A program made the position numbers and the translations under genes. A stretch of DNA of 64,000 bases from Pedococcus aerophilus (GTDB taxonomy: Bacteria > Actinomycetota > Actinomycetes > Actinomycetales > Dermatophilaceae), in assembly GCF_039532215.1 (NCBI RefSeq), contig NZ_BAAARN010000001.1, forward strand, positions 1,845,942 through 1,909,941, written 5' to 3'. Position 1 is the first letter of the stretch; each line of letters opens with the position of its first letter. Below the pieces are notes generated by a model that was not told the origin of the DNA, made no database searches, and saw only the letters and a list, made by a program, of their open reading frames with translations. Below, piece after piece: positions 43,489-48,152 of this stretch.

Positions 43489-43548
43489 CCCGGGTGCTCG
43501 TGCGGGTCACTCGTCCGGGGGCTCGTGCGCGCGCTCGTCCGGGGCTCC
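43489..43548. repeat. Short imperfect tandem repeat between convergent genes
   Basis: The spacer between the lipoprotein and the asd-like gene holds repeated units of GCTCGTGCG and CTCGTCCGGG, two imperfect copies of about 24 bases. No hairpin with a T run is present. Confidence 0.55.
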
Positions 43549-44639
43549 TCAGACGGCGGCGACCGCCAGGTCCTTGGCCACCAGCTCGGCGACCTGCACC
43601 ATGTTGAGCGCCCCGCCCTTGCGCAGGTTGTCGCCGCAGATGAAGAAGTCGAGGGTGTTGGGGAAGTCCAGCGCCTGGCGCAGCCGCCCGGCGAACCTCG
43701 GGTCGGACCCCACCGTGTCGTTGGGCGTCGGGAACTCGAAGGTCTCGGGGTCGTCGAGGACCACCACCGCCGGGGCCTCGACGAGCGCCTGGCGCGCCTC
43801 GTCGACGTCGATGGGCCGGGCGAACGTGGCGTGCACCGCCACCGAGTGGGTCGAGATCACCGGCACCCGTACACAGGTCGCCGAGACGCGCAGGTCCGGC
43901 AGTCCCAGCACCTTGCGGGTCTCGTTGCGGATCTTGAGCTCCTCGGACGTCCAGCCGTCCTCGGCCGCGGTGCCGATCCACGGGAGGACGTTCATGGCCA
44001 GCGGCGCCGGGAACGGCGAGTCGGTGCCGAGCTCGAACTCGATGAGCCGGCGCACGTCGCCGGGGGCGTGACCCAGCTCGCGGTGTCCGGCGACCACCTC
44101 GATCTCGTCGTGCAGGCGCGCCATACCGGCTCGTCCCGCACCCGAGGCGGCCTGGTAGGTGGCGACGACGAGCTCGGTGAGCTCCCACCCGGCGTGGAGC
44201 ACGCCGAGGGCATCGATGATCGTCAGCGTCGTCGCGCCCGGGTTGGCGAGGATCCCCTTGGGGCGGTTGCGCACCTGGTGGGGGTTGACCTCGGGGACGA
44301 CGAGCGGGATGTCGGGGTCGCCGCGCAGTGCCGAGCTGTTGTCGATGACGACCGTGCCGCGTGCTGCCGCGATCGGGGCCCAGTGGGCGGCGACCGGAGA
44401 GGGGAGGTCGACCAGCGCGATGTCGACCCCGTCGAAGAACTCCGGGGTGAGCTCCTGGACGACGACCTCACGACCGCACACCGTGAGCACCGTGCCGGCG
44501 TCCTCGGACGCTGCGGCAGCCCGGATCTCGCCCCAGATGTCGGCCCGCATCGCGAGCACCTGCTGCGTGACCCGCCCCACGGCTCCCGTGGCACCGACCA
44601 GGGCGAGGGTCGGCCGAGGAGCGCGGGAGGCGAGGGAGG

Positions 44640-44643
<4 letters not shown>
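43549..44643 (-). CDS. asd: Aspartate-semialdehyde dehydrogenase homologue lacking the catalytic cysteine
   Basis: A 364-residue protein that follows the whole ASADH fold: [18 protein letters not shown] for NADP binding, [39 protein letters not shown] with the conserved Gln, [18 protein letters not shown] with the His, and [20 protein letters not shown]. The active-site loop reads [11 protein letters not shown] where functional enzymes have N-P-N-C-T-T, so residue 137 is Ala (codon 44233-44235) in place of Cys. The GTG start overlaps the lysC stop. It may be an inactive or repurposed paralogue; a true asd would then lie elsewhere. Confidence 0.88.
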
Positions 44644-45923
<1,280 letters not shown>

Positions 45924-46107
45924 GGTGGAACTCCTGGGGACCAGACGACGGTGCAGGGCGCGTGCGTGGGGGCCACGCGCGCGTAGCGTGCAGTCTATCG
46001 ACGGTCCTCATGGTGGGACGCGGCAACCGTATGGCGGACGGGAACGAGCGCGGGCGCGGCGCCGTCAAACCGCGGTCACCGGCTCCACTGGAGGGATACC
46101 GTCAACC

Positions 46108-47022
46108 ATGACCATCGAGGTTCAGGGGGTCCGCCGAGCGTTCGGCGACGTCCTCGCGGTCGACAGCATCAGCCTCACCGCTGCACCGGGTGAGGTCACC
46201 GCGCTGATCGGCCCCAACGGCTCCGGCAAGACCACGCTGCTCCTCATGCTCGCGACGCTGCTCGTCCCCGACCAGGGCGCGATCCGCATCGACGGCCTCG
46301 ACCCGGTCGCCCAGCCGACCGAGGTGCGCTCGCGGATCGGGTGGATGCCCGACGGGTTCGGCACCTGGGACGCGCTCACGGTGAGGGAGGTCCTGCACAC
46401 CGTCGCCGCGGCATACCGGATCTCCCCGGACCGGGCCCGCGCCCGCACGGACGAGCTCCTCGCCACCGTCCACCTCGAGGACCTCGGTGACCGGCGGGCC
46501 CGGGTCCTGTCGCGGGGGCAGAAGCAGCGCCTCGGCCTGGCTCGCGCCCTCATCAACGACCCGAGCGTCCTGCTCCTCGACGAACCCGCCTCCGGCCTGG
46601 ACCCCCGCAGCCGCATCGAGCTGCGCGACATCCTGAGGTCGCTCGCCGCGCAGGGCAGGACGGTCGTCGTGTCGAGCCACATCCTCACCGAGCTCCAAGA
46701 GGTGGCCGACCGGGCTGTCATCATCGCCCGGGGCCGCAGCCTGGAGACGCAGCGACTCGACGCCGAGTTCGTCTCGACCGGCCCCGCCTCGTGGCGGATC
46801 GACTCCCTCGACCTCACCCGCCTCACCGACTGGCTCGCCGAGCACCACGTCCCCGCACGACGGGTCGGAGGTGGCCTCACCGAGGTGGAGGTGTCCGGCG
46901 AGGAGAACGCCGCGCGGCTGCTCGCCGACCTCGTCCGCGACGGCATCCGGGTCACGGCCTACGCCCCCAGCCAGGGCGCCCTCGAGTCCGCCTACCTCGC
47001 AGCGACGGAGGACCGGCGATGA
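46108..47022 (+). CDS. ABC transporter ATP-binding protein
   Basis: A 304-residue ATPase of the drug/lipid exporter type (CcmA/DrrA-like). Walker A is ALIGPNGSGKTTLLLMLATL, the signature VLSRGQKQRLGLARALIND, Walker B VLLLDEPASGLDPRS and the switch SSHILTELQEV. A C-terminal extension of about 90 residues follows. It overlaps its permease by ATGA. Substrate unknown. Confidence 0.92.
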   Translation: MTIEVQGVRRAFGDVLAVDSISLTAAPGEVTALIGPNGSGKTTLLLMLATLLVPDQGAIRIDGLDPVAQPTEVRSRIGWMPDGFGTWDALTVREVLHTVAAAYRISPDRARARTDELLATVHLEDLGDRRARVLSRGQKQRLGLARALINDPSVLLLDEPASGLDPRSRIELRDILRSLAAQGRTVVVSSHILTELQEVADRAVIIARGRSLETQRLDAEFVSTGPASWRIDSLDLTRLTDWLAEHHVPARRVGGGLTEVEVSGEENAARLLADLVRDGIRVTAYAPSQGALESAYLAATEDRR

Positions 47023-48152
47023 GCTGGCACGGGATCAGGACGGTCGCGACCCTCGAGCTGCAGCAGCGGGTTCGCACCTCGAAGTGGCCCATCGTCCTCG
47101 GGGTGTGGGTCGCCCTCATCGCCCTCGTGGCGTTCCTGTCCTACTGGGCCACCAACGACGAGCAGCTGCGAGCCGGCGAGGCGATGTACGACATCGTCAT
47201 CTTCTTCGTCCTCGGCCTGGCCATGCTCATCGTGCCCTCGCTCACCGCGACGTCGGTCAACGGGGACCGCGAGCACGGGGTGCTGGCCACGCTCCAGACG
47301 ACCCTGCTCTCGCACTGGGACATCGCCCTCGGCAAGCTCGCAGCGGCCTGGCTCATCTCCATGGCGTTCCTCGTCAGCGCGATGCCGTTCATGGCGTGGG
47401 CGTGGTTCGAGGGTGGGGTGTCCGGCGGCCGGATCGTGCTGTCGCTGCTCGTGCTCGTGCTGGTGCTCGCCGTCGTGTGCACGCTCGGACTGATGTTCTC
47501 GGCGCTCACCGCCCGACCGATCGCCTCCGCCGTCCTCACCTACCTCGCCCTGGGCGCCCTGGTCTTCGGGACGACGATCGGCTTCGCCCTGTCCGCCTTC
47601 CTCGTCACCGAGACCGAGCAGCAGAAGGTCTTCGGCATCCCGGACAACTGGTGGGAGACGCACCAGCCCCCGGCCATCGACCCCGCCGACCCCACCATGA
47701 CGCAGGACCAGCTCGACGAGCTGATGAAGTCGAGCCAGCCCACCCGGGCGGACTGCACGACGTTCACCCGCGAGACGCAGGTCGCCCACACGGAGCGGAT
47801 CTGGTGGATGCTCCCGCTCAACCCGTTCGTCGTGGTCGCCGACGCCGCTCCCTCGGTGCCGCGGGAGCGCGGCAACGAGTACTCCTCCGGGTTCACCCCG
47901 ATGCGGTGGATCAGCGGAGGAGCCCGTATGGCGCGCAACGGCCCCGAGGACGTGGTGGACGAGTGCGCGATGCAGACGCAGATGGACTCAGGCGGCTACG
48001 TCGACCCGATGGAGTCCGCGCTGAAGACGGCGCCGGTCTGGCCGTACGGGCTGGTGTTCCTGCTGCTCGCCGGGACGGGTGCAGCGGTCGTCGCCGGACA
48101 GCGGCTCCGGACGCCGATCCGCCGCCTGCCGAACGGCACCCGTATCGCCTGA
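47019..48152 (+). CDS. ABC exporter permease (ABC-2 type)
   Basis: A 377-residue permease with six membrane helices, including IVLGVWVALIALVAFLSYW near the N terminus and VWPYGLVFLLLAGTGAAVVA at the end. SLTATSVNGDREHGVLATLQ is the usual ABC-2 segment after the second helix. A large extracellular loop of about 110 residues, with two cysteines (RADCTTF and DECAMQ), lies before the last helix. It pairs with the ATPase directly upstream. Confidence 0.88.
   Translation: MSWHGIRTVATLELQQRVRTSKWPIVLGVWVALIALVAFLSYWATNDEQLRAGEAMYDIVIFFVLGLAMLIVPSLTATSVNGDREHGVLATLQTTLLSHWDIALGKLAAAWLISMAFLVSAMPFMAWAWFEGGVSGGRIVLSLLVLVLVLAVVCTLGLMFSALTARPIASAVLTYLALGALVFGTTIGFALSAFLVTETEQQKVFGIPDNWWETHQPPAIDPADPTMTQDQLDELMKSSQPTRADCTTFTRETQVAHTERIWWMLPLNPFVVVADAAPSVPRERGNEYSSGFTPMRWISGGARMARNGPEDVVDECAMQTQMDSGGYVDPMESALKTAPVWPYGLVFLLLAGTGAAVVAGQRLRTPIRRLPNGTRIA

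Follow-up and report, generated by a model that had tools for sequence, protein, structure and literature searches.

Introduction

The closest described relatives of the protein reported here are the catalytic aspartate semialdehyde dehydrogenases (ASADHs). According to Viola et al. (PMC3276109), the H. influenzae enzyme employs Cys136 as the nucleophile and His277 as the acid-base residue, binds the carboxyl group of the substrate through Arg270, its amino group through Glu243 and the phosphate through Lys246 and Arg103, and retains less than 0.01% of its activity upon C136S substitution; in the S. pneumoniae enzyme, the same authors describe the adenine as anchored by Ser37 and Arg39. The H. 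influenzae C136S mutant has been deposited, by its title, as a ligand complex (1pqp). Precedents for dead paralogues with regulatory functions are described in a pseudoenzyme review (PMC10211241).

In this study, we analysed a lysC-linked ASADH homologue, AsdB, from a soil actinobacterium, encoded within a 64,000-nucleotide stretch of DNA (hereafter the window). No publication on this protein itself was found in the openly available literature.

Results

As summarized in Table 1, asdB is preceded by the aspartate kinase gene. The junction of the two genes reads ...GGACGGTGACC..., in which lysC terminates with CGG TGA and asdB begins with GTG ACC, in good agreement with the translational coupling to lysC stated in a sequence-only reading of the window. 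That reading had also pointed to an ANPGATT loop in an ASADH homologue, which we located on the minus strand (a strand it had not stated) as A133-N-P-G136-A137-T-T. A Cys codon (TGC or TGT) differs from an Ala codon by at least two bases, and the survey of relatives that it had proposed found ANPGATT in 10 of the 11 genomes of the genus and ANPGATV in the remaining one, so that its argument against a simple read error held. Misreading or a frameshift within this segment was rejected, as the loop recurs within the genus under strong purifying selection.

Table 1. Features of the asdB locus, with positions numbered from the first letter of the window
Feature	Position	Strand	Remarks
asdB, ASADH-fold protein without the catalytic Cys	43549..44643	minus	364 aa, GTG start
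lysC, aspartate kinase with ACT domains	44640..45923	minus	overlaps asdB by GTGA
Gly136-Ala137 codons GGC GCG, replacing Asn-Cys of the catalytic loop	44233..44238	minus	44/44 in clade
Glu47-Asp48 codons, replacing Arg-Ser of the NADP adenine/2'-phosphate loop	44500..44505	minus	Arg and Ser 0/44 in clade
Arg107, retained phosphate-binding Arg (R97 in AsdA)	44323..44325	minus	43/44
Gln164, retained (Q154 in AsdA)	44152..44154	minus	44/44
Glu235 and Lys237, retained amino-group and phosphate binders (E224, K226)	43933..43941	minus	44/44 each
Arg259, retained carboxyl binder (R248)	43867..43869	minus	44/44
His266, retained acid-base His (H255)	43846..43848	minus	44/44

Both Pfam domains, Semialdhyde_dh and Semialdhyde_dhC, matched AsdB, and its AlphaFold2 model (mean pLDDT 94.0) retrieved ASADH entries for all 50 of the PDB matches listed, with query-normalised TM-scores of 0.73-0.88. 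The two domains and the fold thus place AsdB in the ASADH fold superfamily, and the presence of Gln164 and His266 confirmed that the Gln and His segments had been kept together with the fold, as originally noticed. Its nearest solved relatives by sequence, 3vos and 3tz6 (from M. tuberculosis according to their titles), showed ANPNCTT in the alignment, and Ala137 of AsdB occupies the site at which catalytic ASADHs of the asd_B type carry the Cys nucleophile. The closest named loci were those of Phycicoccus sp. Root101 (97%) and of other Phycicoccus, Pedococcus and Knoellia.

On the plus strand, a 378-codon open frame (43525-44661) runs antisense to the entire asdB, probably as an effect of high G+C content, and an ABC transporter ATPase and a membrane protein, read by eye, are encoded at 45454-48152, divergently from lysC.

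The host genome contains a second, unlinked asd gene, asdA (G000:C4:281986-283020), which translates with ANPNCTT and whose product is 43-45% identical to AsdB. The suggestion that another gene makes aspartate semialdehyde (ASA) in this organism was thereby supported. An AsdA match of at least 88% was found in 11 of the 11 genomes of the genus, the motif having been read in the host genome only. All 55 AsdA sequences fetched retained the Cys, and 18 of them had no lysC in the flank. The idea that AsdB replaces a lost homoserine dehydrogenase was rejected upon finding a Homoserine_dh domain.

The residue roles were transferred to the AsdA numbering from motifs and the alignment rather than from structural superposition, with S35 and R37 taken as the counterparts of Ser37 and Arg39. 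The clade of 44 AsdB sequences sharing the Gly-Ala loop was then scored on the 85 columns that are conserved in intact AsdB as well as in AsdA, nine of which were kept in under half of the clade: S35 in 4 rows, R37 in 0, S38 in 0, F68 in 21, N126 in 0, C127 in 0, T129 in 14, Y153 in 12 and A210 in 8. R37 was replaced by Glu in 35 sequences and by Asp in 6, and S38 by Asp in 41 and by Glu in 2; the AsdB of this locus reads A-S-E-D in place of the S-x-R-S of catalytic ASADHs. A change of the NADP loop, which the sequence-only reading had not mentioned, accompanies that of the catalytic loop in this clade. The set for substrate and phosphate binding and acid-base catalysis (R97, Q154, E224, K226, R248 and H255) is complete in AsdB and stands nearly invariant in the clade (Table 1). 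Compared with the 34 intact AsdB of the family and order, the clade shared no residue at columns 33, 38, 59, 126, 127, 231, 299 and 333, of which 33, 38, 126, 127 and 333 lie, by sequence, in or beside the catalytic and cofactor sites, and 59, 231 and 299 elsewhere. Column 333, adjacent to the nicotinamide-site Asn/Gln, has changed from Thr to Met or Leu in all 44.

Other Cys-less groups followed a different pattern. A mixed group of 36 sequences largely kept the cofactor loop (S35 in 33, R37 in 30 and S38 in 28) but kept K226 in only 2 and R248 in 15, and a group of 12 with a PGP loop kept Q154 and R248 in none. In the latter group (L114:3010-4059 and relatives), a hydrophobic residue, in most cases Ile, stands in place of Gln154 and Gln in place of Arg248, as in E. 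coli Usg.

Homologues were gathered by protein similarity, not by linkage, from 58 relatives, 149 genomes of the family, 119 of the order, 296 of the class and 91 of the genus g122 (taken as Streptomyces); the order and class searches took matches at E 1e-80 or better, part of which were fetched. The alignment, built from fetched DNA, comprised 240 AsdB and 55 AsdA sequences, with one AsdB per genome except for G310, which has two. Left out of the 240 were the AsdB of G120, G541, G505, G308, G267, G341 and G456, which were split, incomplete or located at the end of a contig, and the distant matches of G040 and G054; for G005, in which AsdB is broken into two pieces, the longer one was kept. 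No match was obtained in 1 of the 58 relatives (G038), 2 of the 149 family genomes (58 and 75% complete) and 1 of the 91 Streptomyces genomes (G537, 79% complete).

The catalytic Cys was kept in 148 of the 240 AsdB, 102 with NPNC and 46 with a different loop, and was absent from 92, of which 46 have Gly-Ala, 12 Gly-Pro and 34 mixed residues at this site. It was present in all 47 genomes fetched for the class that belong neither to the order nor to Streptomyces, and absent from 85 of the 121 AsdB of the family and order and from 7 of the 76 of Streptomyces, others of which have altered loops such as ASPHC and AGPDC. Among the Streptomyces loci, L149, L148, L281 and others have lysC-linked AsdB with the loops ASPHD, AGPDC and ASPGC, together with a second asd match. 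The altered-loop AsdB of Streptomyces represents the same kind of change in a separate lineage.

In all 240 cases, lysC lay beside AsdB on the same strand, directly adjacent in 219 and separated by one gene, asdA, in 21. Twelve family and Streptomyces genomes (G076, G082, G058, G609, G098, G070, G346, G582, G620, G606, G572 and G586) had lysC without an ASADH-like gene within flanks of about 1.5 kb. Because such lysC-only loci occur, LysC does not require AsdB, and a rule that lysC always needs an ASADH-fold neighbour was rejected; AsdB has been lost in other lineages and is therefore not essential. The survey as a whole shows tolerance and retention without establishing a rule. A second, distant aspartate kinase (39% identity; L320) was seen in the Streptomyces genome G582, which lacks a lysC-linked AsdB, and one genome of the host's family (G084, 99% complete) gave a single asd match and no LysC match at E 1e-60, possibly owing to a gap in the assembly or to replacement of the kinase.

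A tree of 96 rows built without the catalytic and NADP loops grouped the 15 Gly-Ala rows that it contains besides G014 into a single clade (SH-aLRT 91) and implied that the Cys state switched at least five times, including once in Streptomyces (G488). In a FastTree of all 295 rows, nine such switches between presence and absence of the Cys were counted and 44 Gly-Ala rows formed an exact clade (local support 99), the support of the backbones being mixed. The clade counts leave out G014 and G539, which carry a Gly-Ala loop and are placed elsewhere; the loop of the Streptomyces G539 (ANPGAAT, L215) arose independently of the clade of 44, with the NADP-loop Arg still present. Because the Cys is general in the family, its loss is the likely direction. 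The most divergent AsdB, that of G045 (L047/L128), has SVPGGMT and the longest branch on the 96-row tree; no second asd match was found in this genome, which is 91% complete.

In 108 genomes of the family and order, in many of which the second asd match was counted from the match alone with its loop unread, one asd match and more than one were found in 16 and 7 genomes, respectively, when AsdB kept the Cys, and in 4 and 81 when it was lost. The raw Fisher test gave p = 1.7e-10, but only 3 independent pairs lay on supported branches, with a median p of 1; an association of Cys loss with a second asd is thus not significant on independent pairs and is not claimed here, as relatedness can explain the table. 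The four Cys-less genomes with one asd match (G045, G062, G123 and G146) are 91, 84, 94 and 83% complete, respectively. In Streptomyces, the corresponding counts of 1 and 68 with the Cys and 0 and 7 without it showed no association.

The median dN/dS within the genus (Nei-Gojobori, 55 pairs each) was 0.120 for AsdB, 0.113 for AsdA and 0.076 for LysC, and the mean amino-acid identities were 0.892, 0.917 and 0.946, respectively. With a dN/dS near that of AsdA, AsdB therefore looks like a working protein, and it combines the loss of catalytic residues with purifying selection, as expected of a regulatory pseudoenzyme subunit. Split copies were found in G120, G541 and G005; in the last of these, a member of the host's genus, the frame is broken near residue 25, before the loop, which may be real or a read error.

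Discussion

The replacement of the nucleophile strongly suggests that AsdB is inactive as an ASADH; despite its name in databases, it probably serves as a partner protein with a regulatory or carrier role. Since the pocket is retained, the redox chemistry is dead and the place beside lysC is constant, we favour a LysC-linked, ligand-binding partner. The sequence-only reading had offered a regulator or structural partner as one of two possibilities; this part of its interpretation appears to be the best reading, and the interpretation is thus partly supported. That AsdB binds an aspartyl ligand and that LysC is its partner are both suggested with moderate strength, by the conserved pocket and by the linkage, respectively.

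According to the proposed scheme, AsdB would have descended from the lysC-linked ASADH of Actinomycetes. In the clade of 44, Gly-Ala has taken the place of Asn-Cys, which removes the nucleophile, and the Arg-Ser that grips the NADP adenine/2'-phosphate has mostly become Glu/Asp-Asp, while the residues known to bind ASA, β-aspartyl phosphate and phosphate have stayed. Translational coupling would make the output of AsdB proportional to that of LysC, on which AsdB may dock (pairing with AsdA being less likely); it would then bind β-aspartyl phosphate, the labile product of LysC, or ASA without turnover, and the bound form could act as a product sensor, holder or allosteric subunit. We give this explanation as a whole, in which AsdB is a LysC-coupled, redox-dead pseudoenzyme and AsdA, elsewhere in the genome, the true ASADH, about an even chance. 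The 12 genomes with lysC and no AsdB speak against a role as LysC partner, and a pocket-based role is opposed by the other Cys-less groups, which lost substrate residues and still kept the gene. The split copies, the non-significant association of Cys loss with a second asd and the low retention of the intersubunit Tyr153 (12 of 44) also count against the explanation. A more specific form, in which the redox-dead, lysC-bound ASADH of actinomycetes with its acidic cofactor loop is a dedicated receptor of β-aspartyl phosphate or ASA that tunes aspartate kinase, is offered tentatively and is rather unlikely as it stands; if true, such a receptor would have been reached mainly through nucleophile and cofactor-site changes in the next enzyme of the pathway.

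AsdB might instead serve AsdA as a prozyme-like subunit, activating or dampening it in mixed dimers. Both proteins belong to the ASADH family at the identity given above, cross-interface communication in bacterial ASADH dimers is described in PMC3276109, and the trypanosome AdoMetDC and DHS are activated by dead paralogues. Yet 18 of the 55 AsdA have no lysC nearby while all 240 AsdB stay with it, and no more than 12 of the 44 clade members retain Tyr153 of the interface, though it is present in the AsdB of this locus; we consider such a heteromer unlikely, at roughly one chance in five.

Slightly less credit is due to a new activity, in which AsdB would use NAD(H) rather than NADP(H) and convert ASA or a related amino-acid aldehyde directly, with no covalent thiohemiacetal being formed; an aldehyde-alcohol conversion with His266 as the acid-base residue would be one example. 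Among the 46 proteins with the Gly-Ala loop, the Rossmann residues G7 and G10 are kept in 45, S157 in 46, G158 in 45, G160 in 46 and Q335 in 41, and the substrate pocket remains. The change of the NADP-loop Arg and Ser to Glu or Asp follows the usual direction of an NADP-to-NAD switch. Against this stand the substitution at column 333 beside the nicotinamide site and a gene with a homoserine dehydrogenase domain already present in the genome, and no example is known to us.

It is improbable that AsdB is a redundant operon copy under ongoing decay, to be lost with time. The lysC-only genomes, the three split copies and the many different dead loops would fit such a course, but a dN/dS similar to that of active AsdA and a single fixed Gly-Ala loop with an intact pocket across 44 sequences do not. 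That AsdB is still an ASADH through another nucleophile is very improbable, for although the remaining catalytic residues are kept and the NCBIfam equivalog cut-offs are passed, the loop offers no substitute Cys, the NADP grip has changed too and a second, intact asd is present in the genome.

The LysC-linked, ligand-binding reading may finally be set against known systems. AsdB shares with the asd_B ASADHs (TIGR01296, NF011456) the fold, the Pfam domains and the substrate and acid-base residues, and its lysC neighbour is that of other AsdB, but it differs in lacking the catalytic Cys, with Gly-Ala for Asn-Cys and Glu-Asp for the NADP-loop Arg-Ser. It nevertheless scores 329.2 against TIGR01296 (cut-off 324.2) and 361.8 against NF011456 (cut-off 223), and seven other Cys-less proteins scanned all pass NF011456, one by a single bit, and all fall below TIGR01296. 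Cys-less AsdB is thus called ASADH under the NCBIfam cut-offs, a naming trap by which metabolic models would include an enzyme that probably cannot work.

The trypanosomatid prozyme and inactive DHS subunit resemble AsdB as conserved dead paralogues of a biosynthetic enzyme, retained there for its regulation; they differ in belonging to other enzymes and in that their interaction is proven. At one operon position, AsdB forms a natural series that runs from active through partly altered proteins to dead ones, with or without the pocket, and to absence of the gene, which lets a non-catalytic role of a pathway enzyme be tested.

Within the family, E. coli Usg (NP_416822.1; 31% identity) is likewise a Cys-less paralogue, but it has a V-P-D-S loop, lacks the equivalents of Arg97, Gln154 and Arg248, and is encoded in K-12 between pdxB and truA and not beside lysC. 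AsdB stays far below the curated cut-offs of PRK05671 (164 vs 284) and PRK08040 (152.1 vs 273), which we take to be models for Usg-type proteins, and Usg resembles the PGP group more than it does AsdB.
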